Source: Thermoanaerobaculum aquaticum
GTDB lineage: Bacteria; Acidobacteriota; Thermoanaerobaculia; Thermoanaerobaculales; Thermoanaerobaculaceae
Assembly (NCBI RefSeq): GCF_000687145.1
Contig: NZ_JMFG01000006.1
Span: 1 to 64,000, forward strand
Length of the DNA: 64,000 nucleotides
Direction of reading: 5' to 3'
The position numbers and the translations under genes were made by a program. Positions 31,878 through 47,200 of the stretch are shown here, piece after piece; the stretch's first letter is position 1; each line of letters opens with the position of its first letter. The notes under the pieces are model-generated. The model saw nothing but the letters and a program-made list of their open reading frames with translations, did not search any database and was not told the DNA's origin.

Positions 31878-33935
31878 ATGAAACGCTTTTTTGCTGCACT
31901 CATGGCCTGCGGTCTGGCGAGCTTGGCCGCAGCGGAAGAAGGCATGTGGACCTTTGACAACCCCCCGGTGAAGCAGCTCCAGCAAAAGTACAACTTCACC
32001 CCCACCCAGGAATGGCTGGATCATTTGCGGCTTTCCTCGGTGCGCTTCAACGACGGCGGGAGCGGCTCCTTCGTTTCCGCCACCGGCCTGGTGCTCACCA
32101 ACCACCACGTGGCCCTGGGGCAACTGCAGAAGGTTTCCTCGCCGCAAAAGGACTACGTGGCCGATGGCTTCCTGGCCCGTACGCCGGAGGAAGAGCTCAA
32201 ATGCCCCGACCTGGAGCTCAACGTGCTGGTGTCCATGGAAAACGTTACCGATCGGGTGCTGGCCGCCGTCAAACCCGGCATGAGCGAAAAGCAAGCCAAC
32301 GACGCCCGCAAAGCCGCCATTGCCGCCATTGAAAAGGAAAGCATGGAGAAAACCGGCCTGCGCTCGGACGTGGTCACCCTTTACCACGGCGGCGAGTACT
32401 GGCTTTACCGCTACAAGAAGTACACCGACGTGCGCTTGGTGTTTGCCCCCGAGCAGCAAATCGCCTTTTACGGTGGCGACCCCGACAACTTCACCTACCC
32501 CCGCTACGACCTGGACATGGCCCTGTTCCGCGTGTACGAGGACGGCAAGCCTGTCAAGCCCCAGCACTACCTCAAGTGGAACCCGGAAGGCGCCAAGGAT
32601 GGGGAGTTGGTGTTTGTTTCCGGGCATCCCGGCTCCACCAACCGGCTTTACACCCTGGCACAGCTGGAAACCCTCCGCGACCTCAGCTACCCCATGCGCC
32701 TGGAGGGCATCGAGCGGCGCCTGGGGGTGGCCCGGGCTTACGCCGCCCGCGGCAAGGAGCAGGCACGGCAAGCGGCAGGCCTGATTTTCGGTCTGGAAAA
32801 CTCGAAAAAGGCCCTTTCCGGCGAGTACAAGGGCTTGAAGGACCCGCAGCTCATGCAAATCAAGGCCCGGGAGGAAAAAGAGCTGCGGGATAAGGTAGCC
32901 GCCAACCCCGAATGGCAAAAGGCCTACGGGGATGCCTGGCAGGCCATCGAAAAGGCGCAGGCCAGCTTCCGGGAGCGGGCCAAGGAGTACAGCTACCGGA
33001 GGCTTTCCGGTTACCGTCTGCCCGGCGTTGCGCTTTCCATCGTGCAGCTGGTGGCGGAAGTGAAAAAGCCCGACGGGGAAAGGCTGGATGGCTTCCACGA
33101 AAGCCAGCTCCCCTCCCTGAAATTCCGCCTCTTCTCCCCGGCTCCCATTTACCCCGAGTTTGAAGAGGTTTTGCTCGCCGATGGCCTGCGGGAAGCCCTG
33201 GAGAAGCTGGGGCCCGAAGACCCGTTTGTGAAGGCTGCCCTGGCAGGCAAAACCCCTGAGCAGGTAGCCCATGAGGCCATTGCCGGCACCAAGCTTGCCG
33301 ACCCCGACTTCCGCAAGCAGCTGGTGGAGGGCGGTGAAGAAGCGGTGGCGGAAAGCCAAGATCCCCTCATCGCCCTGGCCCGCCGGGTGGACCCCATCTT
33401 GCGCCAGGAGCGCAAGTGGTACGAAGACACCATCGAGTCGGTGGTGCGCACCGCCGGCGAAAAGATTGGCAAGGCCCGCTTTGCCATTTACGGCAAGGAC
33501 ACCTACCCCGACGCCACCTTTACCCTGCGGCTCACCTACGGCACGGTCACCGGCTACCCCTACAACGGCACCATCGCGCCGTCAAAAACCACCTTCTACG
33601 GCCTCTACGACCGCGCCGCTTCCTTCGATTACAAGCCCCCCTTCCACCTGCCCCAGCGCTGGCTTGACCGCAAAGACGCCTTGAACCTGGCCACCCCCTT
33701 AAACTTCGTTTCCACCTGCGACATCATTGGCGGCAACTCCGGCTCACCGGTGGTCAACCGCCAAGGGGAAATCGTGGGCCTCATCTTTGACGGCAACATC
33801 GAGTCCCTGGTGGGGAGGTTTGTCTTTGACATCACCGCCAACCGCGCAGTGGCGGTGCACACCGCCGGCATGACCGAAGCCCTGAAGAAGGTTTACGACG
33901 CCGAGTTCCTGGTGAAGGAACTCCTAGGTCAGTAA
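31878..33935 (+). CDS. S46-family dipeptidyl-peptidase (DPP7/DPP11 type)
   Basis: 685 residues with a signal peptide (MKRFFAALMACGLASLAAA). S46 peptidases remove N-terminal dipeptides in the periplasm. Triad positions are visible: His in GLVLTNHHVALG, Asp in YDLDMALFRVYEDGK and Ser in IIGGNSGSPVVNRQG. After the serine, GLIFDGNIESL carries Gly where DPP11 has Arg, which in characterised enzymes goes with hydrophobic (DPP7-like) rather than acidic P1 preference; that assignment rests on my memory of the alignment. AAGGAGGG lies 3 nt before the ATG. A strong terminator follows. Confidence 0.93.
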   Translation: MKRFFAALMACGLASLAAAEEGMWTFDNPPVKQLQQKYNFTPTQEWLDHLRLSSVRFNDGGSGSFVSATGLVLTNHHVALGQLQKVSSPQKDYVADGFLARTPEEELKCPDLELNVLVSMENVTDRVLAAVKPGMSEKQANDARKAAIAAIEKESMEKTGLRSDVVTLYHGGEYWLYRYKKYTDVRLVFAPEQQIAFYGGDPDNFTYPRYDLDMALFRVYEDGKPVKPQHYLKWNPEGAKDGELVFVSGHPGSTNRLYTLAQLETLRDLSYPMRLEGIERRLGVARAYAARGKEQARQAAGLIFGLENSKKALSGEYKGLKDPQLMQIKAREEKELRDKVAANPEWQKAYGDAWQAIEKAQASFRERAKEYSYRRLSGYRLPGVALSIVQLVAEVKKPDGERLDGFHESQLPSLKFRLFSPAPIYPEFEEVLLADGLREALEKLGPEDPFVKAALAGKTPEQVAHEAIAGTKLADPDFRKQLVEGGEEAVAESQDPLIALARRVDPILRQERKWYEDTIESVVRTAGEKIGKARFAIYGKDTYPDATFTLRLTYGTVTGYPYNGTIAPSKTTFYGLYDRAASFDYKPPFHLPQRWLDRKDALNLATPLNFVSTCDIIGGNSGSPVVNRQGEIVGLIFDGNIESLVGRFVFDITANRAVAVHTAGMTEALKKVYDAEFLVKELLGQ

Positions 33936-33958
33936 AGCAGCTTAGGCCCGGAAAGACG

Positions 33959-33988
33959 AACGCCCCGGCCCCGCCGGGGCGTTTTTTT
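33959..33988 (+). terminator. Intrinsic terminator after the S46 peptidase
   Basis: AACGCCCCGGC (33959-33969), loop CCC, GCCGGGGCGTT (33973-33983), continuing into a run of seven T (33982-33988). It has no U-tract on the - strand and so serves only the + strand transcript. Confidence 0.92.
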
Positions 33989-34008
33989 AAGTCGAGCCAA
34001 AAGTGGCT

Positions 34009-36957
34009 TTACAAAGCGTCCTCCAGGATGATCCACCGCGTGCCTCTATGCTTGCAAGCCTCGGCTACCGGGAGGTCCCAGCTCCACCACGCGTAAAGCC
34101 GGCTGTAGGCCCAACGGTACTGGTAGGAAACAAAGGGCAGCCGTTCCACCGCCACCCGGTACCAGCGGGCGGCTTCGCTACAGCGGCCCTCCGCTTGCGC
34201 CTTCAAGCCCAAGTAATAAGCAAGCTCGCCGCCATCTCGCCGGGAAAACCTGGTGGAAAGCAGCATCTCCTCCTCCTTGGGTGTGGCCACACCCAGCAAA
34301 TACCGCACTAAAGCGCCGTTGGGGTCGGAACTGGGCTTGCTAAACTCGCTCAGCAGCAGCTCCCGGTTTTTCCTGCCCGGATCAAACCCCAGGGCCAGCG
34401 CCGCGGCCCGCTGGATCCAAACCCGCTCCGCCCCGTCCCCCTGCGGCTGGGGCGGCAGCAAATCCCAAAGCACCTCGTAGCTTTCCGAATCCCAGCACTC
34501 GTAGGAAACCCGGTTCCAGGGTTCAACCTTGAGCCGCTCCTGCAACCACTCCAAGGCGGCGCGCTTTCCCTTCAGCTGCCGCAGGTAGCGGTACGCTTCG
34601 AAAAGCAGATCCGGCCGCCCGGGAGGCCATATCGCCTTTTCTGCCACCACAAAGGCGAGCTCCACATCTCCCAACCTTGCGGACTCGTGGGCAAGGGTGA
34701 TGAGCTTTTCCCCTTCCACCTTGCGCCCAAAGGCCTTCATGGCCTCGATGGCTTGCTGGCTTTTGCCGTGAAAACGGCGCACGAACACCGGTCCCAGGTC
34801 GAATCGCCAGCGCTCCGCGCTCAGGGTATTCCGGTGGCGGGCAAAAGCCTCGGCCGCAGCGGCGTAGTTGCCCAAGGCCCAATGGACGTCCATAAGCGCA
34901 ACCAGGGAATACTCTGAAAACGGATAGCGCTCATAAGCCTTCTGCGCCCACTCCAGGGCTTCTTGCTTTCGCCCGTTAGCCAAAAGCGCGCGAACGTAGA
35001 CGAAAAGCACGTTCTCCTGGTACGAAGGCACCACTTCTTCCACTGTGGTCAGGGCCTCCCGGTTTTTCCCCATTTTCAACAGCACCTGCGCCAGGTGGGC
35101 TCGGGCTACCGCGTATTCCAGGCCGCCTTGGGACAAGCCCTGGCAAAGGTCCTCCAAAATCCGCACGGCTTTTTCCGGATGGCCTCGGGCTACAAACACC
35201 CGCGCCATTTCTTCTGCCAGGTTCCATGGATCCGGAATGGCGTCCCGCAGCTTTTCGTAAGCCTCCTCCAAAGCGGGAAGCGGTTGATCCGGAAGCCGCC
35301 CCAGGTACCGCAAAGCCATGTGACGCACCAGGGGTGGGCTTTGCGGGTCGTTGACCCACTGCCAGAGCAAGTTCTGCTCCCCAGCAACGGCCTTGTGGTA
35401 CACGACTGCAAGGGGAAAAAGCAGGCGGGAGCTGCGGTAAAGCTCCTCTGTAACTTTCTCTGCTAACTCCAGATCCAGAAGCGTGTTGCGGGCCAAGACT
35501 ATCAGACTTTGACGATGGTCGGGGCGGCTATCCAACGACAAAAAGGCCACCCGCGCCGCCGCCAGGCGCTCGGGAACCCCATAGGCCATGGCCCGCTCCA
35601 GCTTCCAGAAAAGGTCCATCCTGGCCTGGCCTCCCGGCGCCCCGGGGGTTGCCAGCACCCGCAGCAGGGTTTGCTGATCGCCCTCACCCAAGAAGCTCCC
35701 CACCACCGCAGCGGCCCACTTTTCCAGTGCCCTCCCCCAGGGGCTTTTGGCATTTCCCAGAGCTGTACGCAGCTGCCTTGCGGCGTTCACCTCGGCGTAC
35801 TGACGCACAGCGTAATCCACCAGGATCTCCACACCCGAGGCAAACAGGCTCCGGGCAAAGCTCTGGTGCCACGAGCGGGGAAACAGAGCATTCTCAGGCC
35901 AGGAGCGGGACGCCAGAGCCTTCTCAAAGGCGCCAAGGAGCTGAGCTTCCGGTAACCCCTCCCTGGCTTGAGGCTTTCTTCCTTTTGCCCAGGCCATGGC
36001 TGCAGAAAGCGCCTGCCGCCCCGCCTCCTGGGCCACCGGCATTTCGTGCCTTTGGCCCACCGCCCGCAGCCACACTAAAGACCAGGGGTCAACCTGCTTT
36101 GTGCGCTGGGCCATGTCGTAGGCTTTGGAGAAAAGCAGGCTCTCGCTCAAACTTTCGGCCGCAAAAAGCACCGTTAATGGGTCCGAGGAGCGAGCCGCAA
36201 GAGCTTGCAGTTTGTCGCTTTCGTGGTTTACGAACAAAACCAGAGGATGCTCCGGCCCCAGCTTGCCTAAAAGCTCATCCCCCGGCCAGTAACCCAGACG
36301 AAAGGCCAGCACCGCCGTTTCTTGCGGCAGCTCCTGGCCGAAGACCTCGGCCAGAGCCACCAGGGCCAAAGCGTGGGCCGAAACTTCATCCCCGGTTTCC
36401 AGCAAATCCAAATGATGGGCCGCCAAAACCGTCGCCAGTTGAGCAGCATCGGCAAGCGTTTTTGCCGATGGCCCTTGCTGCCACCGGTTGGCAAGCTCCT
36501 TGGCTTGTTCCAAAAAATTCAGGGAGGGCTTCAAAGCCTCTTTTTTGCCGTTGTCGTCCTTCAGCTTCGGGGCAAGTTTCGGCTGCAACTGCTGCGCCCA
36601 CGAACGCAACAGCTGCCAGTAATCCTCAAACACCGGCCAGGCGGGCAGGCTCCCTACGGGCGTTTCCCCGTAGCGAATGGCCCAACCGTTGTCCTGCCAC
36701 ACCGCCGTTGTGTCCGCTTTCGAATCCCCCAGAGCGAGCCGCGCCATTTCAGTGACGGCAAGCAGAAACCGCCGGTCCGGCGGCAGCTGGAACGCCCGCT
36801 CTAGGTAGTCCCGCACCTCCGCAAGCGTGGCTTGATCAGGCAGTTCCTCCCCGGCCCGCTTGACCTCCCGAGGGACCGGCTCCTCTGTTGGTCCCTGATA
36901 GCCACAACCCGAAAGCAGCACCAGCAAAACCGCAAGCCCCGCTATTGGTCGCCGCAT
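34009..36957 (-). CDS. Large lipoprotein with helical (TPR-like) repeats, unknown function
   Basis: 982 residues. A lipoprotein signal (MRRPIAGLAVLLVLLSGC, Cys18) is followed by an all-helical protein. TPR-like pairs are clearest around 560-740 (ARVFVARGHPEKAVRILEDL, AQVLLKMGKNREALTTVEEV, ALLANGRKQEALEWAQKAYE). No catalytic motif is evident. Such lipoproteins often scaffold envelope complexes, but no partner is suggested by the neighbours. ATG 36957 was chosen because GGGAGGGG stands just before it. Its stop is 21 bp from the S46 terminator, so the two genes converge. Confidence 0.8.
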   Translation of the reverse strand: MRRPIAGLAVLLVLLSGCGYQGPTEEPVPREVKRAGEELPDQATLAEVRDYLERAFQLPPDRRFLLAVTEMARLALGDSKADTTAVWQDNGWAIRYGETPVGSLPAWPVFEDYWQLLRSWAQQLQPKLAPKLKDDNGKKEALKPSLNFLEQAKELANRWQQGPSAKTLADAAQLATVLAAHHLDLLETGDEVSAHALALVALAEVFGQELPQETAVLAFRLGYWPGDELLGKLGPEHPLVLFVNHESDKLQALAARSSDPLTVLFAAESLSESLLFSKAYDMAQRTKQVDPWSLVWLRAVGQRHEMPVAQEAGRQALSAAMAWAKGRKPQAREGLPEAQLLGAFEKALASRSWPENALFPRSWHQSFARSLFASGVEILVDYAVRQYAEVNAARQLRTALGNAKSPWGRALEKWAAAVVGSFLGEGDQQTLLRVLATPGAPGGQARMDLFWKLERAMAYGVPERLAAARVAFLSLDSRPDHRQSLIVLARNTLLDLELAEKVTEELYRSSRLLFPLAVVYHKAVAGEQNLLWQWVNDPQSPPLVRHMALRYLGRLPDQPLPALEEAYEKLRDAIPDPWNLAEEMARVFVARGHPEKAVRILEDLCQGLSQGGLEYAVARAHLAQVLLKMGKNREALTTVEEVVPSYQENVLFVYVRALLANGRKQEALEWAQKAYERYPFSEYSLVALMDVHWALGNYAAAAEAFARHRNTLSAERWRFDLGPVFVRRFHGKSQQAIEAMKAFGRKVEGEKLITLAHESARLGDVELAFVVAEKAIWPPGRPDLLFEAYRYLRQLKGKRAALEWLQERLKVEPWNRVSYECWDSESYEVLWDLLPPQPQGDGAERVWIQRAAALALGFDPGRKNRELLLSEFSKPSSDPNGALVRYLLGVATPKEEEMLLSTRFSRRDGGELAYYLGLKAQAEGRCSEAARWYRVAVERLPFVSYQYRWAYSRLYAWWSWDLPVAEACKHRGTRWIILEDAL

Positions 36958-37165
36958 AACCCCTCCCACGGCTCACAAGGCCTCGAGTTTTCTGAAAAAA
37001 GTGTAAAGCCTCTGCGGTTGTCCGCAAGCCCTCGCTGCCAACCGATTCTTAGGCGGAGGTACTAGTGTTTCGGCAGGAAAAGCCCGCTAATGCTTTGAGG
37101 ACGATGCCCGCCGCCGAGGCGAATGCCTCGGGCTGACCAACGAACCGGCGAAGCGGAAGAACGAA

Positions 37166-37405
37166 TCAGCAAAGCTTGGAAAACAACGTCTTGAGCTCAT
37201 CCACAGTGGGGACGCGGCCGGCCACCACGATCTTGCCGTCCACGATCACGGCGGGTGTTAGGGTCACGCCCATGCGGGCAAACTCCTCCACGCGGGTGAC
37301 ATGGGCAACCTCGGCGGCCAGGTTGAGCTCGGCGCAGGCGTTCATGACGTTCCGTTCGGTGGCTTGACAACGGGGACAACCGGGACCCGCAACCACGATT
37401 TTCAT
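37166..37405 (-). CDS. Small thioredoxin-like redox protein (redox-active disulfide protein 2 type)
   Basis: A 79-residue thioredoxin fold with the active site C10-P-R-C13 at the end of strand 1 and the cis-proline region TLTPAVIVDG. This matches the small redox-active disulfide protein family found beside DUF318 permeases. It lies 15 nt downstream of the permease gene and shares its transcript. It could reduce the substrate or the permease cysteines; that is inference from the pairing. Confidence 0.88.
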   Translation of the reverse strand: MKIVVAGPGCPRCQATERNVMNACAELNLAAEVAHVTRVEEFARMGVTLTPAVIVDGKIVVAGRVPTVDELKTLFSKLC

Positions 37406-37420
37406 GGTTTTCCCTCCTTT

Positions 37421-38470
37421 TTAAAAGACAAAGTTGCCAAAAACCCAGCCCACCACCGTGCCAAGAACCACGACGGTGGGCACATAAACCAGAGTTTTTT
37501 TCACCCCGAAGACGCGAGCAATGGCTAGCCAGTTGGGCAAGGAAAGACCGGGTCCGGTGAGCAGCAGGGCGAGAGCCGGCCCTTTGCCCATGCCCATCTT
37601 CATGAGGGTGTCCACAAAAGGGGCCTCGGTCATGGTGGCAAAGTAGCTGACCGCACCGAAAAGGGTGGCCACAAAGGAAGCCAAAAGCCCGTTCCCACCT
37701 ACCAGCCGTCGAACCCACTCTTCGGGTAGCACCGCTCCCACGACCCCCACCACGAAGACCCCTACCAGCAGCAGCGGAAAGATGATGCGGACAAACCACC
37801 AGGTTTCTGCAAGCCACTGGCGGATGAGCTCCCGGGCCACAACCCGCCAAGCGTAAAGCGCCATCACGCCCGAAGCTAACGCCCACACCACCACCTTGCG
37901 GCCGTAGGAGCCCCCCTGCACCAGGTAGTTGGGCAGCAGCAGGGAAAGCACCAAGAAAGCCAGCAAAACCAAGTGGCGGGGATCAACCATCCCCGAATGG
38001 GTGTCCGGGTCATGGACCTGATGGGGAAGCTCCCGGCGTTCGCCGGAAAAAGCCCAGCTCATGACGCCCCCCACCACAAAGGCCATGACCAAGGCCGCCG
38101 CCACCCGGGCCAGGGCCATTTCGCCCCCCAGGATGCTGCCGGTGTAGGTGAGGGCCAGGATGTTGCTGGCTGGCGTTACCCAGAGCACGATGAACGCCAC
38201 ACCCACCCCAGCACCGCCGTAAAACAAGCCGCTGGCCACCGGAATCACCGTGCAGGAGCAGGCAGCCACCAAAAAGCTGGCCACGCTGGCAAGAGAAAAG
38301 GACTTGAGCTTGTGGACCTGCTCCCCCAAAAGCCGGAGGATGGTGTCCCGGCGAATGAACGTCACCATGGCGCCCGCAAGCAGAAACGCCGGCACCAAAC
38401 AGGTAAGCACGTGGGCGGCCACGTACTCCTTCACCGCCGCAAGTCCGGCTACCAGCAGCTTTTCCAGCAC
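37421..38470 (-). CDS. DUF318 (ArsP/YraQ-like) permease
   Basis: A 349-residue membrane protein with about eight to ten spans. The family signature VAACSCTVIPVASGLF (C71, C73) lies in the first half and its counterpart FGAVSYFATMTEAPFVDTLMKMGM in the second. ArsP members export trivalent organoarsenicals; other DUF318 permeases have no known substrate. A His-containing loop HQVHDPDTHSG separates the halves. It is followed by the redox protein and controlled by an ArsR-type operator, so efflux or uptake of a thiol-reactive metalloid is likely. Confidence 0.88.
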   Translation of the reverse strand: MLEKLLVAGLAAVKEYVAAHVLTCLVPAFLLAGAMVTFIRRDTILRLLGEQVHKLKSFSLASVASFLVAACSCTVIPVASGLFYGGAGVGVAFIVLWVTPASNILALTYTGSILGGEMALARVAAALVMAFVVGGVMSWAFSGERRELPHQVHDPDTHSGMVDPRHLVLLAFLVLSLLLPNYLVQGGSYGRKVVVWALASGVMALYAWRVVARELIRQWLAETWWFVRIIFPLLLVGVFVVGVVGAVLPEEWVRRLVGGNGLLASFVATLFGAVSYFATMTEAPFVDTLMKMGMGKGPALALLLTGPGLSLPNWLAIARVFGVKKTLVYVPTVVVLGTVVGWVFGNFVF

Positions 38471-38749
38471 AGGACACCTCCGAAGGCAGGTTGTTTTCTC
38501 GTCACCTTTTGGGCCATGAAAACGATCTCGCTCGGGGCACAGGCAGCGTCAAGCCCCGCCGGTTTTTCGCCGGACCGTTTTCGGAAAGGCTCGATGTCCC
38601 CGCGGTCTTCGGTTCCCAAGAAGCCTGGGTTTTCGGCTTTGTGTACAGCCCGGTTAGCAGGAGAGGCCGGACCAAACCGCCACCGCGGGTCGGGGAATCC
38701 TTCTGGTAATACGAACATGGGTGGCCACCGGCAGGCGCTTACGGATCTC

Positions 38750-38769
38750 ATTTCGTCTTCTTGCGAAAT
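38750..38769 (-). promoter_or_regulatory. ArsR-type operator at the permease promoter
   Basis: ATTTCG (38750-38755), eight bases, CGAAAT (38764-38769) is a perfect dyad. It overlaps the -10 box and the expected start site, so a bound repressor would block RNA polymerase. The same dyad with one change occurs at the arsR start codon. Confidence 0.7.
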
Positions 38770-38795
38770 ATAGCGGTGCGTCCCTAAGCTGTCAA
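38767..38795 (-). promoter_or_regulatory. Near-consensus promoter for the permease-redox operon
   Basis: Read on the - strand: TTGACA (38795-38790), 17-bp spacer, TATATT (38772-38767). The -35 box is perfect and the -10 box matches five of six. It is by far the best sigma-70 promoter seen in the window, consistent with a strong promoter kept off by a repressor. Confidence 0.8.
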
Positions 38796-38869
38796 GCGGG
38801 TGTGCTTGCGGCCGGGCGGTAGCTGTGCCTGGGCTTCAGGAGGCAGATCCTAGAGTTTCATTGCTTGAG

Positions 38870-38902
38870 CCTGGTTACGCTGTCTCGTAACCGTTAACCA
38901 GG
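38870..38902. repeat. Inverted repeat downstream of arsR
   Basis: CCTGGTTA (38870-38877) pairs with TAACCAGG (38895-38902); an alternative inner pairing GGTTAC/GTAACC is also possible. Neither strand has a T-tract directly after it, so a terminator role is doubtful. Confidence 0.5.
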
Positions 38903-38925
38903 GAAAAACCGAGAAGCGTCAAGCT

Positions 38926-39327
38926 CTAACGCTTGAGCTGGGGGGCAAGCAAGCCCAGGCGGGAGAGGTCCAGGTCGGCGTCGCACAGCACCTGCGGGTC
39001 AATGCAGCGGAGCTTGCCCACCAGCGCGGCGTCCTGGGCAATTTGCGGATCGCCGGTCAGCTCCTCCCTGAGCTGGGCCAAAAGCCTTTCCCCTTCCGGC
39101 TCCAGGTGGTAGTAAACCCAGCGGCCCACCTTGCGCTCCCCCACCAACCCGCCCCGGCGCAGGGCAGCCAGGTGAGCAGAAACGGTGGAAGGGGCAAGGC
39201 GCAAGACGGCGGTGAGCTGGCACACGCACAAATCCCCCAAACCCAGCATGGCCATCATGCGCAAACGGGCGGGGTGGGCCAGTGCCTTGAAGCGATCCAC
39301 AACCAGGGACAGTGCCGTGCGCGCCAT
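38926..39327 (-). CDS. ArsR/SmtB-family metalloregulator
   Basis: A 133-residue winged-helix repressor. Helix 3 carries GDLCVCQLTAVL with C34 and C36, the CVC part of the As(III) site of ArsR; the third cysteine of the classic site is absent. LAPSTVSAHLAALRRGGLV is the recognition helix and RWVYYHLEP the wing. It should dissociate from the ATTTCG-N8-CGAAA dyads on binding a soft metal or metalloid. No Shine-Dalgarno is evident and the operator overlaps the ATG, so the message may have a very short leader. Confidence 0.92.
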   Translation of the reverse strand: MARTALSLVVDRFKALAHPARLRMMAMLGLGDLCVCQLTAVLRLAPSTVSAHLAALRRGGLVGERKVGRWVYYHLEPEGERLLAQLREELTGDPQIAQDAALVGKLRCIDPQVLCDADLDLSRLGLLAPQLKR

Positions 39328-39345
39328 TTCGCTTTCAGACGAAAG
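39326..39345 (-). promoter_or_regulatory. ArsR-type operator at the arsR start codon
   Basis: ATTTCG (39326-39331), eight bases, CGAAAG (39340-39345), matching the permease operator in 11 of 12 dyad positions. A TTGACA box (39371-39366 on the - strand) lies upstream, with no good -10 at the standard distance. The position supports autorepression. Confidence 0.6.
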
Positions 39346-39452
39346 GTCCTACACTTTTTTGGGGATGTCAAGAACATGCCGGCAAGACGCGGGTGAACCC
39401 ATGGTCAAGGCGTCTGGGTCTTGCCAGGCCGGCCAGCTATAGTAACGTCACC

Positions 39453-41342
39453 ATGGCCAAGGCGGAGCCAAAAGCCGACAGCACTGGAAAGACCAGGGCG
39501 CAACCGTTCAAAAGCGCGCCGCCCGAAGTGCGGTTGGGCGTGCTGGCCGCTCTGGTGGTGCTGGTGCTCGCGGGAAGCAGGTTGGCGGACCGCTGGGAGC
39601 TCCCCTTCCGGGATCTTCTGTTGTCATGGGCCCCCCATCGGCCCCCTCGCCTTACGGCAGCGGTGGTGGTGGATGAGCAGGCGCTGGCCCGTTTTGGACG
39701 CTTCCCCTGGCCCCGGGAGCGGTTGGCCCAGGTGGTGGAGGCCATTCGGGAGGCGGGTGCCCGGGGCCTGGTGGTGGACCTGCTGCTGGCCGAACCAGCC
39801 CCCGGCGACGCGCTTCTCGCTTCCGCCCTTTCCCAAATCCCCGCGGTGTTGGCAGTGGCGCCCACCGACAGCGGGGATCGCTGGCTTTGGCCCAGCCCGC
39901 AGCTGGCGGCAGCCGCTCGCCTGGGGCACGCCACCTTTGCCGGCGACCACGATGGTGTGGTGCGGCGGCTTTCTTCCACCCAGCAACTGGGTGACCGCAT
40001 GCTCCCCGCTTTGGCCTGGGAAGCGGTGCGGCTGGTGGCGCCCTCCCTTCCTCTTCCCGTGGGCCGTGCCTTAAGGCCCGACTTCCGCACCCGGGCCCGG
40101 GCCATCCCCCAGGTGAGCGTGAACGCGGTGCTGGAGGCCCAGGGCTCCCACAGCATCCTGAAGGGGCGCGTGGTCTTCCTGGGAGTTACCGCCGCCGGCT
40201 TGGGAGACCGGGTGGTTACCCCTACCTCGGTGCCCGGAATCCCCGATGCCGGGGTGCTGGTGCAAGCGGCATTTGCCGAGTGCCTGTACCAAGGAGGGTT
40301 GTTGCAAAGGCTCCCCCCCTGGGGGGCCGCTCTGGCTGCGGGTTTGCTGGTTTGGGCCGGCGCCGTGCTGCGCCGCCGGGCTTCCCTTTCCCTGGCGCTC
40401 ACCGCAGCCCTTGCGGTTTTGGTCCCCCTGGCCGCAGGGGTTGTGAGCTTGCTGGGGTTGGGCTGGGAAACGCCTCTGCTCACGCTGGCGGCGACCTCGG
40501 GTTCGGTGGTGCTGCTTTCGGGTTTGCGCATCCTCCGCCACATCGAGGAGGCCACCCAAAGGTTGGAGACTACCGCGGCACACCCGCGCCTTTCGCCGGA
40601 GGAGCGGGTCGCGCAGCTCTTGCGTTTGGCGCAAAGCGTTGCGGAGCTCGAGCGGCAGTCGGCGGAAAGCCGGCGCCTTTTGGTCCACGAGCTCAAAACC
40701 CCGCTGGCGGGGCTTAAAGGCTTGAGCCAGCTTCTCAGCGAGTACGAGCTTTCCCCGGAAGAGCACCAGCGGGTGGCTGGGCTCGTGGCGCAAGAGTCTT
40801 CCCGCTTGGCCGAGCTGGTGGAAACCCTTCTGGAGCTGGAAAACCTCACCTTGCGCCCCTTCCCCCCCGATGCACCGGTGGTGGACCTGGAGCAGCTGGT
40901 TCGGGAGCGGGTGGAGTTGTTCCGGGCCGGCACCGGGCGAAACGTGCAGTGGCAGAGCGACGGCCCGGCACCGGTGCGGGGCGTCAGCTCGCTTTTGGCG
41001 CGGGTAGTGGACAACCTGCTGGCCAACGCCCACAAGTTCTCGCCCCCGGAAGCCCCCGTGATGGTGCGGCTTTCCCGCACAGACCAGGTGCTCTTGGAGG
41101 TGGAAGACCGCGGCCCCGGCATTGCCCCCGAAGAGCAGGAGCGCATCTTCCAACGCTTCGTGCGCGGACAATCAGCGCGGGAAGTGCCCGGGTTGGGTTT
41201 GGGGCTTTCGGTCGTGCGGGAGGTTGTAACATGGCATGGGGGCCGTGTGGGCGTGCGGAGCACCCCCGGTGCGGGAAGCACCTTCACCGTAGTCCTACCG
41301 CTGAGCGGGGAGGCCAGTCGTGGCAAAAGTACTGGTGGTTGA
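39453..41342 (+). CDS. CHASE2-domain sensor histidine kinase
   Basis: 629 residues. A TM segment (about 25-45), an extracytoplasmic CHASE2 domain (about 55-270; VVVDEQALARFGRFPWPRERLAQVV and LKGRVVFLGVTAAGLGD are typical), a cluster of three TM segments (about 285-370), then HisKA with the phosphorylated histidine in LLVHELKTPLAGLKG (near 411) and HATPase with N box DNLLANAHKF, G1 EDRGPGIAPEEQ and G2 GLGLGLSVV. CHASE2 kinases sense unknown periplasmic or membrane signals. ATG 39453 was chosen because upstream codons overlap the arsR control region. The stop overlaps the response-regulator gene by 23 nt, so they form a pair. Confidence 0.92.
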   Translation: MAKAEPKADSTGKTRAQPFKSAPPEVRLGVLAALVVLVLAGSRLADRWELPFRDLLLSWAPHRPPRLTAAVVVDEQALARFGRFPWPRERLAQVVEAIREAGARGLVVDLLLAEPAPGDALLASALSQIPAVLAVAPTDSGDRWLWPSPQLAAAARLGHATFAGDHDGVVRRLSSTQQLGDRMLPALAWEAVRLVAPSLPLPVGRALRPDFRTRARAIPQVSVNAVLEAQGSHSILKGRVVFLGVTAAGLGDRVVTPTSVPGIPDAGVLVQAAFAECLYQGGLLQRLPPWGAALAAGLLVWAGAVLRRRASLSLALTAALAVLVPLAAGVVSLLGLGWETPLLTLAATSGSVVLLSGLRILRHIEEATQRLETTAAHPRLSPEERVAQLLRLAQSVAELERQSAESRRLLVHELKTPLAGLKGLSQLLSEYELSPEEHQRVAGLVAQESSRLAELVETLLELENLTLRPFPPDAPVVDLEQLVRERVELFRAGTGRNVQWQSDGPAPVRGVSSLLARVVDNLLANAHKFSPPEAPVMVRLSRTDQVLLEVEDRGPGIAPEEQERIFQRFVRGQSAREVPGLGLGLSVVREVVTWHGGRVGVRSTPGAGSTFTVVLPLSGEASRGKSTGG

Positions 41343-42681
41343 TGACGACGCGGGCATCCGCGAGATGGCAAGCTTGGCTTTGGAAAAAGCAGGCCACCAG
41401 GTGTTGCGCGCCGCCTCCATCGCCTCCGCCCGCCGGCTTCTCGCCGAGGAAACCGTGGCGCTGGTGCTCTGCGACATTTATCTGCCCGGGGAAAACGGCT
41501 TGGAGCTTTTGGCGGACATCCAGAAGCTTCCCCACGCCCCCAAGGTCATCCTCATGACCGCCCGGGGCAGCCTGGAAACCGCCCTGGACGCTACCCGCCT
41601 GGGCGCCCACGACTACCTGGCTAAGCCTTTTGATTTGCGGGAACTGGTGGCCGTGGTGGAAAAGGCTCTGCAGCCTCCACCGCCACCGGCGCCGGCGCTT
41701 CCACCCATGCCCGGCTTGTTTGTGGGCTCCCACCCCTCTATGGTGGAGGTGTACAAGGCCATTGCCCGGGTGGCGCCGCTGCCGGTGCCGGTGCTGGTGC
41801 TGGGGGAAACCGGAACCGGCAAGGAGCTGGTGGCGAAAGCGCTGCACCAGTACTCCCCCTTTGCCACCGGTCCCTTTGTGGCGGTGAACTGCGGGGCCAT
41901 CCCCGATTCGTTGCTGGAAAGCGAGCTCTTCGGCCACAAGAAGGGGGCCTTCACCGATGCCCACACCGACCGCAAAGGAGCTCTGGCCAGTGCCGATGGC
42001 GGAACGGTTTTCCTGGACGAAATTGGCGAGGTTTCCCCGGCGTTCCAGGTGAAGCTGTTGCGCTTTTTGCAGGACTCCTTGGTCCGCCCGTTGGGGAGCG
42101 ACAAGCCCATCCCGGTGCGGGTGCGGGTGGTGGCGGCCACCAACCGGGACCTGGTGGCCCAGGTGAAAGAGGGGAAGTTCCGGGCCGATCTGTACTACCG
42201 CTTGGCGGCGTACGAGATCCGCCTTCCCCCGCTGCGGGCCCGCGCTTCCGATATCCCGGAGCTGGTGGAGCATTTCCGCCAGAAGATCACCGCCGAGCTG
42301 GGGCTGGGGGAAACGCTCCCCGCCACGGAAGAGGTCCTCGCCATGCTGGCCCAGCACCCCTGGCCGGGCAACGTGCGGGAGCTGGAGCAGGTGGTGCGCC
42401 GCATGCTCATCAACACCCGGGGCCTCGCCGACGCCCAGGAGCTGGGGCGGCTCTTGGCGCTCGCCCCAACCCGCAACCAACCCTCCCCTAGCCCCGAGCC
42501 TGCCCTCACCTCGCTGGAAGAAGCCGAACGCAGCCACATCCTGGAGGTGCTGTCCCGGGTGGGGGGCAACCGCAGCCAAGCGGCGCGGCTTCTGGGCATC
42601 GATCGCAAGACCCTGGCACGAAAGCTCAAGCGCTTTGGCATCAATTTTGAAAACGAAAGCACTGGAGAGGGTGAACCATGA
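41320..42681 (+). CDS. NtrC-family sigma-54 response regulator with GAFTDA loop
   Basis: 453 residues. Receiver (1-120; acidic pocket DDD at 9-11, phospho-acceptor D in CDIYLPG, K in AKPFD), AAA+ domain (about 138-375; Walker A GETGTGKE, Walker B GTVFLDEIGE, R fingers in RADLYYRL) and a Fis-type HTH (NRSQAARLLGIDRKTLARKLKR). The sigma-54-contact loop reads GAFTDA instead of GAFTGA. The GTG start lies inside the kinase gene. The stop overlaps the FecR-domain gene (ATGA). A sigma-54 promoter lies downstream at 43446, an obvious target. Confidence 0.95.
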   Translation: MAKVLVVDDDAGIREMASLALEKAGHQVLRAASIASARRLLAEETVALVLCDIYLPGENGLELLADIQKLPHAPKVILMTARGSLETALDATRLGAHDYLAKPFDLRELVAVVEKALQPPPPPAPALPPMPGLFVGSHPSMVEVYKAIARVAPLPVPVLVLGETGTGKELVAKALHQYSPFATGPFVAVNCGAIPDSLLESELFGHKKGAFTDAHTDRKGALASADGGTVFLDEIGEVSPAFQVKLLRFLQDSLVRPLGSDKPIPVRVRVVAATNRDLVAQVKEGKFRADLYYRLAAYEIRLPPLRARASDIPELVEHFRQKITAELGLGETLPATEEVLAMLAQHPWPGNVRELEQVVRRMLINTRGLADAQELGRLLALAPTRNQPSPSPEPALTSLEEAERSHILEVLSRVGGNRSQAARLLGIDRKTLARKLKRFGINFENESTGEGEP

Positions 42682-43361
42682 AGTACGCTGGTGTCCTTTG
42701 CTTGTTGCTGTTGGCCGAGCCCAGCGCTGGGCCGCTGGAGTACCGTTTTGCGGAAGTGAAAAGTAAGGTGATCATCACCCACGGGCAAACGGAACGTCGA
42801 GCCCAGGTGGGCACGGTGGCCCTGGCCGGTGACCGGGTGCGCACCGGCTGGTTTGGCCGGGCGGTGATCGAGGTTCCCACCCGCGGCTCCCGCTTCGAGC
42901 TTTTCCCCCTCACCCAGGCGGTGCTAGCCGGGGAGCAACCGGGGGTGCTCATCGAGCTGAAGCGCGGCAGGCTCTGGGCGGTTTTTGAGGCCATCACCGG
43001 CCAGGAGGAGCGCTTGGTGGCCACACCCGGAGCCATCCTGGCGGTGCGGGGAACAGCTTACGGCCTGGAAGTGGACCGCAGCGCCAACGTTGAGCTGGCG
43101 GTTTTTGAAGGCACGGTGGAGGTGCGCTCCAGCTTGCCGGAGGTTCCGCCGCTTCTGGTTCCTGCCGGGCACTTCTGCACCTTTTCCCCCGCCCGGCAAC
43201 CCTTTTCCCGCCCCATGCCGCAAGGGATGAGCCCGGAAATGTGGCGGCATGGGGGCGGCATGGGCGGTATGCGCCCGGGGGATATGGGCGGACGCGGTGC
43301 CGGCGGCATGGGTGACAGCACCCGCCGTCCCCCTTCCGGCATGGGGCCCCACCGGCACTGA
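42678..43361 (+). CDS. Exported FecR-domain protein with Met/Gly/His-rich tail
   Basis: 227 residues. A short signal peptide (MKYAGVLCLLLLAEPSAG), then a FecR domain (about 35-160; LAGDRVRTGWFGRAVIEVP, RGRLWAVFEAITG, VATPGAILAVRGTAYGLEV, VAVFEGTVEVRS-like strands) and a tail from about 175 with repeated MSPEM, GGGMGGMRPGDMGG and a terminal HRH. FecR domains transmit or anchor in the envelope. The Met/His-rich tail suggests soft-metal binding. It is translationally coupled to the response regulator, so it may be a sensor accessory; that part is inference. Confidence 0.82.
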   Translation: MKYAGVLCLLLLAEPSAGPLEYRFAEVKSKVIITHGQTERRAQVGTVALAGDRVRTGWFGRAVIEVPTRGSRFELFPLTQAVLAGEQPGVLIELKRGRLWAVFEAITGQEERLVATPGAILAVRGTAYGLEVDRSANVELAVFEGTVEVRSSLPEVPPLLVPAGHFCTFSPARQPFSRPMPQGMSPEMWRHGGGMGGMRPGDMGGRGAGGMGDSTRRPPSGMGPHRH

Positions 43362-43370
43362 GGGCCCTAG
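43358..43370 (+). promoter_or_regulatory. 13-bp near-palindrome, upstream copy (possible activator site)
   Basis: CTGAGGGCCCTAG, centred about 108 bp before the expected start of the sigma-54 transcript, a typical enhancer distance for NtrC-type activators. An identical copy lies at 43478-43490. It overlaps the FecR-gene stop codon. Confidence 0.45.
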
Positions 43371-43445
43371 GGGCAGCTTGCCCCAGGGGTGAGGCAGGAC
43401 ACCCCAGCCAGCCGGCAAAAGGGCCTTCCAGGAACAGCAGGGTTG

Positions 43446-43461
43446 TGGCATGAAAGGTGCA
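43446..43461 (+). promoter_or_regulatory. Sigma-54 (-24/-12) promoter
   Basis: TGGCATGAAAGGTGCA matches TGGCACG-N4-TTGCW with two mismatches, and the essential GG and GC are 10 bp apart. The start would be near 43472, 36 nt before the ATG of the Met-rich protein. It lies directly downstream of genes for a sigma-54 activator. Confidence 0.78.
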
Positions 43462-43477
43462 TAAGTCTCAAGCGGGC

Positions 43478-43490
43478 CTGAGGGCCCTAG
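43478..43490 (+). promoter_or_regulatory. 13-bp near-palindrome, downstream copy
   Basis: CTGAGGGCCCTAG, identical to 43358-43370, just before the ribosome-binding site AAAAGGAGG (43491-43499). A bound protein here would lie within the leader, so this copy could also act on the mRNA or as a roadblock. Confidence 0.4.
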
Positions 43491-43507
43491 AAAAGGAGGC
43501 AACAGAG

Positions 43508-44155
43508 ATGAAAAAAATCCTAGCAATTTCGGTCTTGGTTCTGGGCTTGGCCACTACGGGCTTTGCGCAGATGGGGATGGGAGGGGGCATGGACGGCATG
43601 GAGCCGGTGGTGGCACCCACCGGTGAGGTGCTGGTGGTTCGTCCCACCCTGGATCAACAGCAGTTCCCCAACGGCATGGAGCTGGTGGTCCTCTCCCCTG
43701 CGGGACAGGTCCTCTGGACCTGGCAGGCGCAAGCGGGGCTCGGTGAGGTCTTGGTGGTTGGGCAAACGGTGCTGGTGCCCGTGGGTATGGGCTTCTTCAC
43801 CCCCAACAACAACACCACCACCAACGCTCAGCTGGTGGCCCTGCACCTGGCCAACGGCGTGGAGCTGTGGCGCCTGAACCTCCCCGGCATGGCTCACGGC
43901 CTCACCGCCGCCGGCGATCGGGTGTACGCCTTTGTGGGTGCCGGCCCCAACTCCACTCCTCAAAACCCGGGAGGAAACCAGGGTGGCCAGGGTGGTCAAG
44001 GGGGTATGGGTCGCGGCCACATGGGCGGCAACCGCGGCAACGGTGGCATGAACGGCAACGGCGGCATGAACCAGGGGCAAGGCCCCGGGGCCCGCACCCT
44101 GGTGGCCATCTCCCTCTCGGGACAGATCCTGTGGTCCTATCCACCCTTAAACTGA
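43508..44155 (+). CDS. Secreted Met/Gly/Asn-rich protein with PQQ-like strands
   Basis: 215 residues with a clear signal peptide (MKKILAISVLVLGLATTGFAQ). The mature start is Met/Gly-rich (MGMGGGMDGMEP). The middle has PQQ-propeller-like strands (VVLSPAGQVLWTWQAQ, LVALHLANGVELWRLNLPG, LVAISLSGQILWSYPP), interrupted near 155-200 by a Gly/Asn/Met/His stretch (GMGRGHMGGNRGNGG). There is too little for a full propeller. The Met-rich parts resemble soft-metal ligands such as those of Cu(I) proteins; the function is unknown. ATG 43508 follows AAAAGGAGG. Transcribed from the sigma-54 promoter and ended by a strong terminator. Confidence 0.8.
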   Translation: MKKILAISVLVLGLATTGFAQMGMGGGMDGMEPVVAPTGEVLVVRPTLDQQQFPNGMELVVLSPAGQVLWTWQAQAGLGEVLVVGQTVLVPVGMGFFTPNNNTTTNAQLVALHLANGVELWRLNLPGMAHGLTAAGDRVYAFVGAGPNSTPQNPGGNQGGQGGQGGMGRGHMGGNRGNGGMNGNGGMNQGQGPGARTLVAISLSGQILWSYPPLN

Positions 44156-44174
44156 GGCCCTTGCGGGCAAAGCC

Positions 44175-44206
44175 ACGAGGGGCGCTGCGGCGCCCCTCGT
44201 TTTTTT
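44175..44206 (+). terminator. Intrinsic terminator after the Met-rich protein gene
   Basis: ACGAGGGGCGC (44175-44185), loop TGCG, GCGCCCCTCG (44190-44199), then seven T. It closes the kinase-regulator-FecR-Met-rich unit just before the convergent efflux operon. Confidence 0.93.
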
Positions 44207-44228
44207 ACGCCGGAAGCTTTTGCCTCTG

Positions 44229-47200
44229 TTACCGTGCCCGCTGGAAGACCCGCCAGAACACGCTGTACACCGTAGGCAAAACAAAAAGCGTCAGGGCAGT
44301 GCAGGTGACAAGCCCGCCAATGACCACCGTGGCCAGCGGCCGCTGCACCTCAGCACCGGAACCGGTGGCCAAAGCCATGGGTAAAAACCCCAGAGACGCC
44401 ACCAGGGCGGTCATCAGCACCGGGCGCATGCGGGCCCCACAGGCTTCCTGGAGGACCTCAAAGACCGACCTGTTCCCCTGTTTTTCCAAACTGCGCACCT
44501 GGCTCATTAAAACCACGCCGTTGAGCACCGCCACACCAAACAGGGCAATGAAGCCCACCCCGGCCGAAATGGAAAAGGGCATGTCCCGCAGGGCCAGGGC
44601 AAAAACCCCGCCGGTAGCGGCCATGGGGATGTTGAGGTAAATCAAAGCGGCATGTTTCGCGCTGCCAAAGGTGAAGTAAAGCATGGCAAAAATGAGCGCC
44701 AACACCAAAGGCACCACCAGCGCCAGCCGCTTGCTGGCCGCCTCCAGGTTTTCAAACTGCCCTCCCCAGCGGATGAAGTAACCGGGCGGCAAAGAAACCT
44801 CCCGGGCCAGGCGCTCCTGCGCCTCAGCCACGAAGGAAGCCACGTCCCTACCCTGCACGTTAGCCTCCACCACGATCCGCCGACGCACCGCTTCCCGGCT
44901 AATTTGGGCCGGGCCGGTTTCCAGAGTGAGGTGCGCCAGTTGCCCCAGGGGGACCAGGGCTCCGGAAGGTGTGGCCACCGGCAGGTTGGCCAGGGCCTCC
45001 AGGCCGCGGGCAGCGTCGTCGCTGAAGCGCACCACCAGCGAAAAGCGCTTTTGCCCCTCAAACACCGTTCCCACCACCTTGCCGGCCCGGGAGGCCTCCA
45101 CCGTGTCCAGCACCTCCCCCACCGAAACCCCGTAGCGGGCGCAGCGATCCCGATCCACCCGCACCCGCATGACCGGCAAGCCGGCGGTTTGCTCCAGCTT
45201 CACGTCCGCTGCCCCGGGCACTGCCGCTACCACCCGGCGAATGGCCTCCCCTTTTTCCCGAAGCACCTCCAGGTCATCCCCAAAGAGTTTGACCGCCACA
45301 TCGGAGCGTACCCCCGCCAGCAGCTCGTTAAACCGCATTTCAATGGGCTGGGTGAAGGAAAAGCCGGTCCCCGGTACCTCTCGCTCCAGGGTTTCCCGCA
45401 TCCGCTCCACCAGCTCACCCTTGGTTTTGGCTGTCTGCCACTGCCTTGGGTCCTTCAAAATCACAAACACATCGGCCAGCTCAATGCCCATGACGTCGGT
45501 GGCCAATTCGGGACTGCCCAGCCGGGTGACCACGGTGGCAACCTCCGGGAAGCGCCGGAGCACCTTTTCAATCCTGGTGGTCCCGGCCACCGCCTCGGAC
45601 AACGCCACCGAGGGCAAGCGCACCGCGTTCATGGCGATATCCCCCTCGTCCAGCCGGGGGATGAACTCAGCACCCAAACGCGCCGCCACCACCCCACCCG
45701 CCACCACCGCAAGCACCGCCCCCGACACCACCAGGCCCGGCCGCCGCAGGCATCCCGAAAGCGCCTTCAGGTACAGAACCCGCAGGCGGCTTACGAACCG
45801 CGGTTCCTGGGCGTGGGCGATCTTCTTAAGCCACAGCGAGGCCAGCACCGGAATCAAGGTCAGGGTGAGCAAAAGAGAGGCCACCAACGCAAAGAGCACC
45901 GTAAAGGCCATGGGTTTGAACATCTTCCCCTCCACACCGGTGAGGGTGAGGATGGGCAGGTAAACCAGGATGATGATGCCAATGCCAAAGGCAATGGGCC
46001 GAACCACCTCGCCGGCCGCCTCGGCCACCTCCCGCCGGAGGTCCTTTTCGGAGCTACCCTGCTGCCCCAGCCGCCGCAGCACGTTTTCCACCAAAACCAC
46101 CGCCCCGTCCACGATGAGCCCAAAGTCAATGGCCCCAAGGCTCATGAGGTTGGCGGAAAGGCGGGTCTGGGCCATCCCCAGAAAGGCAAAGAGCATGGAA
46201 AGGGGAATGGCCGAAGCCACAATGAGCCCCGCCCGCAGGTGGCCCAGAAAGGCAAAAAGCACCGCCACCACCAAGATAGCCCCCTCCACCAGGTTCTTCT
46301 CCACCGTGGCGATCACCCGCCGCACCAGCAAAGCCCGATCGTAGTAAGGCACAAGCTTTAAACCTTCGGGCAGAGAGGGCTGGATTTCCTCCAGTGCCCT
46401 GCGCACCCGGGTGGCCACATCTAGGGCGTTTTCCCCGGCCAGCATTTGCACTATGCCAATGACCGTTTCCCCCCGGCCGTTGGCGGTGGCGGCGCCGATG
46501 CGCAGCATGGACCCCTCCCGCACCTGGGCCACGCTTCCCACCGTCACCGGCACCCCGTTTTCATCGGTTTTTAAAACGATCTTGGCAATGTCCTCCAGCG
46601 ACCCCACCATCCCTTCGCCGCGGATCACCACCTGCTCCTGGTTGTGCTCGATGTAGCCGCCCCCGGCGTTGCGGGTCCCCTGGGCTACCGCTTGGAACAC
46701 CTCCCGCAGGGAAAGCCCGTAGGCCACCAGCCGCCGGGGGTCCACCACCACTTCGTACTGCTTGGGGAGCCCACCCCACACGTTCACCTCGGTAACCCCC
46801 GGCACCGCCCGCAGCCTGGGGGCAATGAGCCAATCCAAGATGGTCCGCCGCTCCATGGGGGAAAAGGAGTCCCCTTCCACCGTGAACATGAACACCTCGC
46901 CCAGGCCGGTGGACACCGGCCCCAACTCGGGATTGCCAAACCCTTCGGGGATTTGCTCCCGGGCCTGGGCCAACCGCTCGGAGACCAGCTGGCGGGCAAA
47001 GTACACGTTCACGTGGTCGGCAAACACCACCGTCACCGCGGAAAGACCGTAGCGGGTGACCGAACGGATTTCCTTGAGGTTGGGCAAGCCGTTCATAGCG
47101 GCTTCAATGGGGTAGGTGACGTACTGCTCCATTTCCAGAGGCCCCAGGGCCGGGGCTTTGGTGAGGATTTGCACCTGCACGTTGGTGATGTCGGGAACCG

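Follow-up and report, generated by a model that had tools for sequence, protein, structure and literature searches.

A conserved inverted repeat as the predicted ArsR operator of dispersed arsenic genes in Thermoanaerobaculum aquaticum

The window analysed here, the first 64,000 nucleotides of a Thermoanaerobaculum aquaticum contig, carries an arsR gene encoded between two nearly identical inverted repeats, which raises the question of what binds these repeats and which genes they control. The first-pass annotation of this DNA had proposed that they are operators of a CVC-type ArsR controlling a DUF318 permease (DUF318 being the earlier name for PF03773, ArsP_1) and a redox protein. As it had stated, and as a recheck of both sequences confirms, the two dyads agree at 11 of 12 positions with their starts 576 bp apart; judged from sequence, they are almost certainly landing sites of the 133-residue ArsR. 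We put at about 0.88 the probability that they would serve as ArsR operators in a steric repression of arsR, arsP-arsE, and acr3 that is relieved by arsenicals.

The features of the locus are collected in Table 1. The ArsR assignment rests on PF01022 (49.1 bits, cut-off 22) and NF033788 (87.4 bits, cut-off 55), and that of the small redox protein on the ArsE family TIGR00412 (79.7 bits, cut-off 62) as well as PF13192. The permease, a predicted arsenical exporter, matches PF03773 at 232.2 bits (cut-off 32.3) and falls short of the SaoE and SO_0444 equivalog thresholds of NCBIfam. ArsP organoarsenical permeases are defined by efflux of MAs(III) or trivalent roxarsone, but the fold family also includes permeases with other substrates. 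Relatives carry arsE-arsF-arsG beside a PF03773 permease, while here the ArsEFG set is incomplete, with no match to arsF or arsG beside arsE in window positions 33001-45000. Terminator-like hairpins are no more frequent in positions 36900-39600 (3 found) than in shuffled sequence (4.4). Divergent from arsR, positions 39453-42681 encode a sensor histidine kinase with a CHASE2 domain and, after it, a sigma-54-dependent response regulator.

Table 1. Genes and predicted control elements of the arsR-arsP locus (window positions)
Feature	Positions	Strand	Description
arsE-family thioredoxin-like protein	37166..37405	-	79 aa, TIGR00412, PF13192
arsP-like permease	37421..38470	-	349 aa, GTG start, GGAGGTG upstream
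100-codon ORF	38449..38751	-	begins at operator 1 ATG, overlaps arsP start
Operator 1 (arsP), predicted	38750..38769	-	ATTTCGTCTTCTTGCGAAAT, perfect 6-8-6 dyad ATTTCG-N8-CGAAAT
arsP promoter, -10 box TATATT	38767..38772	-	17 bp from -35 box, overlaps operator 1
arsP promoter, -35 box TTGACA	38790..38795	-	20 bp from dyad
Terminator-like hairpin, weak	38914..38934	-	arsR end
arsR	38926..39327	-	133 aa, HTH_5 / metalloregulator ArsR-SmtB
Operator 2 (arsR), predicted	39326..39345	-	ATTTCGCTTTCAGACGAAAG, dyad with one mismatch
arsR -35-like TTGACA	39366..39371	-	20 bp upstream of operator 2

The positions first claimed for the two dyads are correct: operator 1 overlaps the -10 box of a minus-strand TTGACA-N17-TATATT promoter, and operator 2 overlaps the arsR start codon (39327-39325), its final two minus-strand bases being the AT of the ATG. 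The accompanying description of a near-consensus promoter suits arsP but not arsR, where the N17 after TTGACA leads to a weak -10, GACCTT (39348-39343). Operator 1 is the exception to this layout in its own genome: its ATG opens not the permease but the 100-codon frame, in which no known domain is recognised, and arsP starts 280 nt downstream of the operator, behind a long leader and with its own GGAGGTG. Similar orphan ATGs stand behind the dyad in two other genomes, one opening a frame of 20 codons (G002, ahead of acr3) and the other a frame of 44 codons (G049, ahead of arsP).

A third predicted site lies on another contig, C9. The arrangement TTGACA-N17-TATATTTCG occurs in exactly two copies in the genome, one before arsP and one before acr3, the latter with its -35 box and dyad at C9 positions 30589-30634, ~230 bp before the acr3 start. 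Two positions mismatch in its dyad, ATTTCGCGCGGGGACAAAAC, and both fall in the right half; the gene behind it is the single acr3 that a family search of this genome identifies (379 bits, cut-off 282.8). With this third site, the predicted regulon comprises arsR, arsP-arsE, and acr3 on two contigs. The regulon as first proposed was thus right about arsR, the permease, and the ArsE-family protein but too small, since acr3 probably belongs to it too, through a weaker predicted site. Around a place resembling arsC on contig C22 (121 bits, cut-off 174.3), no dyad in the 3378 bases fetched comes closer than three mismatches, and a family search of the genome returned no arsM above the cut-off.

Counts of the dyad give different answers at different scales. 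Within the window, four matches at ≤1 mismatch (two palindromic places, each on both strands) compare with 0.78 expected, and 3 of 100 shuffles of the window also reach four; the chance test on the window alone is only suggestive. A scan of the 2.66 Mb genome with ATTTCG-N8-CGAAA, which the first-pass annotation had suggested, finds that the dyad is not common, with exact matches in just two places, at 38750 and 39326. At one mismatch there are 45 matches in this genome against 96 for the reversed control and hence no enrichment, so the regulon cannot be extended by loose matches. Twelve stretches around one-mismatch places among these 45 were read by their flanks; that of the C9 acr3 is the one known to precede an arsenic gene, the other eleven being judged by flanking bases alone, without gene calling.

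The weight of the case lies in the position of the dyads and in the comparison with relatives. Across 59 genomes (this one and relatives up to class level), with genes near the dyads assigned by codon-position score and then tblastn, we found 37 exact dyads in 29 genomes, whereas the reversed control gave 0 in all 59. Arsenic clusters hold 29 of the 37, and include acr3, arsC, arsM, arsA, arsD, arsF, arsG, arsP, and arsE; the remaining eight (L089-L094, L098, L100) lie mostly within predicted reading frames. At one of these eight, L092, a weak ArsA-like match lies ~4.5 kb off. An exact ars-linked dyad is present in 24 of the 34 genomes that encode a close homologue of this ArsR (its own included) and in 0 of the 25 that do not (Fisher p ~1e-8, a value that ignores the relatedness of the genomes); if every exact dyad is included, whether or not it is linked to ars genes, these become 27/34 and 2/25. 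A close homologue is here one scoring at least 60 bits, a cut chosen after the homologue scores had been viewed. At the level of genes, 30 of 42 close homologues have a dyad with ≤1 mismatch near their start, against none of 33 distant ArsR paralogues, and at 28 of these 30 places the dyad begins exactly 18 bases before the start of homology. The earlier expectation that the dyad would be conserved in relatives is thus borne out, and this conservation at arsenic genes supports the prediction of an ArsR operator for arsR, the PF03773 permease, and the ArsE-family protein.

Conservation is incomplete. Twelve of the 42 close homologues have no dyad at ≤1 mismatch; of these, three have a dyad at the usual offset that carries 2-3 mismatches, and nine have none. 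G002, of the same genus, encodes the closest ArsR (67%), but its arsR lacks the dyad, the best candidate there having 5 mismatches; in this genome the dyad is found solely before acr3. In G001, the third species of the genus, this ArsR finds no match and exact dyads are absent. One candidate, the Elusimicrobia locus L039, was set aside: a 37-residue match in which no ArsR reading frame was seen, the best dyads, with 2-3 mismatches, lying elsewhere. Among 264 genomes of the phylum from outside the class, 14 match ATTTCGY-N6-RCGAAATG, six of them at arsenic genes; for the other eight, no ars gene appears in the 3 kb fetched, and some are repeats behind tRNA-like sequence or longer hairpins. Three loci from a single family within the phylum (L131, L133, L148) carry near-identical copies of ATTTCGC-N6-GCGAAAT directly behind tRNA-like 3' ends, where a terminator or repeat is more probable than an operator.

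The sites that end in a start codon reveal how the element is built. We compared 31 of them at ≤3 mismatches, including the arsR site described here and leaving out an accidental site inside the acr3 of G021 and the arsP start in G049, which would be a 32nd. They comprise 29 arsR, one acr3, and one arsE, starting with ATG in 30 cases and GTG in one. Dyad positions 3, 4, 6, 15, 17, and 18 are identical in 31/31; positions 19-20 are partly conserved by construction, the sites having been selected for a start codon, and their mirror positions 1 and 2 are A and T in 28/31 each. The 6-8-6 conserved core might form the inside of an imperfect 12-2-12 operator, a form associated with ArsR/SmtB metalloregulators. 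At 22 of the 31 sites TTGAC is found precisely 20 bp ahead of the dyad, which gives a 17-bp spacer to a -10 box ending in the first three bases of the dyad (TATATT 10, GATATT 7, TACATT 4, other forms 10); by sequence, then, the palindrome lies over the promoter, overlapping the -10 at a conserved TTGACA spacing. The usual promoter geometry puts the start of the transcript at the dyad centre and leaves a leader of ~9 nt. The N8 resembles a Shine-Dalgarno sequence in 14/31 by a 5-base test and 23/31 by a looser 4-base test, both counts being without a shuffle control. The layout of promoter, operator, and start codon is unusually compact, and overlap with the start codon is a conserved rule.

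The protein itself carries the metal box DLCVCQ at residues 32-37, of the ELCV(C/G)D type. Among 29 dyad-linked ArsR proteins, Cys34 is present in 29, Cys36 in 26, and Cys115 in 27, with Thr replacing Cys115 in the other two. The R773-type C-V-C-x-x-C is not found here: its last position is Thr39, and the corresponding column holds no cysteine in 19 of 19 aligned homologues. Because this third cysteine is missing throughout, we guess that the arsenic site consists of Cys34, Cys36, and Cys115. Three genomes encode a second ArsR type with CVG for CVC (L070 2894-3325, L078 1136-1567, and L072 near 5011), which adjoins acr3 and likewise has the ATTTCG dyad at the start codon. A paralogous clade with the helix ADVSTVSKHL or near variants instead has TTTGGC-N6-GCCAAA, at ≤1 mismatch and exactly at -47, in 6/6 loci (L170, at G031:C395:765-956, and L171, L176, L178, L180, and L185), with half-sites spaced as in the first dyad. 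The remaining 27 distant paralogues have neither dyad, the best TTTGGC dyads among them having at least 3 mismatches. Since the second clade has its own dyad in all six cases, operator type follows ArsR clade. Both clades with both dyads occur together in four genomes (G009, G025, G031, G032). The contig of L170 in G031 carries a second, weaker TTTGGC dyad close to an arsP-like gene.

These observations bear on several other ways of accounting for the dyads. Coincidence would be in keeping with the window shuffles that match the observed one-mismatch count and with the lack of genome-wide enrichment at one mismatch, but it leaves position and offset, kept at arsenic genes through the class and parts of the phylum, without an explanation, and we regard it as barely conceivable. 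The first claim that chance is unlikely therefore stands on position and conservation and not on the window taken alone. These operators might instead belong to a different DNA-binding protein found alongside arsenic genes, with ArsR binding elsewhere, as the 12 close arsR genes lacking a dyad at ≤1 mismatch would allow. Against this, the dyad tracks this ArsR across genomes, overlaps arsR itself in most relatives, and is replaced by a different dyad of equal half-site spacing at a different ArsR clade of the same genomes; since each of the two clades pairs with its own dyad, a third protein as binder is improbable.

Alternatively, an RNA hairpin formed by the dyad over ribosome site and start codon might control translation, which would fit the way that the dyad covers the arsR AUG and an N8 containing, in those 14 of 31 start-codon sites, a 5-base piece of the extended Shine-Dalgarno sequence. 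A transcript starting where TTGAC, 20 bp upstream, places it would begin within the dyad and exclude the left half, however, and the half-sites are near invariant at the six fixed positions rather than covarying. Moreover, five of the 29 exact ars-linked dyads lie away from any start codon and no Rfam match occurs in 38400-39500, which makes such control very improbable, even more so than a third protein. Somewhat less remote, yet still unlikely, is an ArsR operator answering to a signal other than arsenic, such as Cu(I), Zn(II), or reactive sulfur. ArsR/SmtB proteins respond to many ligands, the permease has weak, sub-threshold matches to SaoE and to a Cu/Zn efflux family, and a threonine occupies the place of the third R773 cysteine; on the other hand, the regulon that is conserved is specific to arsenic, with acr3, arsC, arsM, arsA, arsD, arsF, and arsG near the same operator in relatives and an acr3 in this genome.

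We hypothesize that, under ArsR control, a dimer of the repressor would occupy the 20-bp dyad, of which the left half forms the end of the -10 box and the centre the predicted transcription start. Spanning from the end of the -10 to ~+11, the bound dimer would leave RNA polymerase unable to open the promoter. In the case of arsR, the dyad extends with its right half into the start codon, so that the predicted leader is only ~9 nt. A trivalent arsenical such as As(III), with methyl-As(III) and Sb(III) as further candidates, may then bind Cys34, Cys36, and probably Cys115, and the loaded dimer would release the DNA, whereby three units would rise together, namely arsR (as feedback), arsP-arsE, and acr3. 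The arsP site, with a perfect dyad and a near-consensus promoter, is predicted to be the strongest, and the acr3 site, with its two mismatches, should be bound more weakly.

More generally, this analysis offers a precise and searchable predicted operator for arsenic genes in a little-studied bacterial group, and links the dispersed transporters arsP and acr3 to one predicted repressor. PF03773 permeases might be assigned to arsenic wherever the dyad stands before them, and the two ArsR clades with two dyads offer a convenient way to test DNA reading by this fold and could yield orthogonal parts for arsenic biosensors. A bolder proposal, which we advance tentatively and at somewhat under even odds, is that a single composite 20 bp takes in the last bases of the -10, the point where transcription starts, the spacer used in ribosome binding, and the AT of the start codon, together with an orthogonal pair of clades and a Cys34/Cys36/Cys115 site. 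If true, repressor, polymerase, and ribosome would share one sequence across the lineage, TTTCG and TTTGG half-sites would form a natural orthogonal pair in the same cells, and the arsenic site would be unlike characterised ones.

A search of the literature by titles and abstract openings, with few subscription journals covered, returned no report of this operator sequence or its reach into the start codon; at the same level of titles and abstract openings, none was found of a tie of arsP and acr3 to one ArsR or of a two-clade operator pair. The known systems are compared here from excerpts of the cited sources. Cysteines of the CVC type are shared with the ArsR of E. coli R773 and of Bacillus subtilis, which are autoregulated As(III)-responsive repressors; their operators are placed ahead of the promoter or next to it, at -64 to -40 in E. 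coli, and the third ligand of R773 is Cys37, whereas here the place is taken by Thr39 and a conserved C-terminal Cys115 is present instead (PMC12607644). A PF03773 permease with an ArsE-family protein recalls Campylobacter jejuni ArsP (PMC6205960) and the ArsEFG set (whose paper is cited in PMC10190100), although, unlike that set, the window has no arsF or arsG beside arsE. As with TtSmtB of Thermus thermophilus, one ArsR/SmtB repressor would serve arsenic genes scattered on the chromosome; the site footprinted for TtSmtB includes TTGCTCAA and overlaps with the -35 box, with no start-codon overlap described in the excerpts of that source (PMC5658604). Another likeness is to Pars1 and Pars2 of Pseudomonas putida, where ArsR1 and ArsR2 exert a steric block over the -10 that is relieved by As(III), with an operator over the -10, a footprint across the predicted transcription start, and two ArsR paralogues in one genome (PMC7994332). 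That operator is an ATATTCG-type partial palindrome resembling the SmtB/ArsR consensus, while here a 6-8-6 ATTTCG dyad reaches the start codon; ArsR1 and ArsR2 cross-bind each other's promoters, whereas the clades described here differ in their half-sites (PMC7994332). The kind of system is thus known, an ordinary ArsR/SmtB regulon, and its exact operator looks new.
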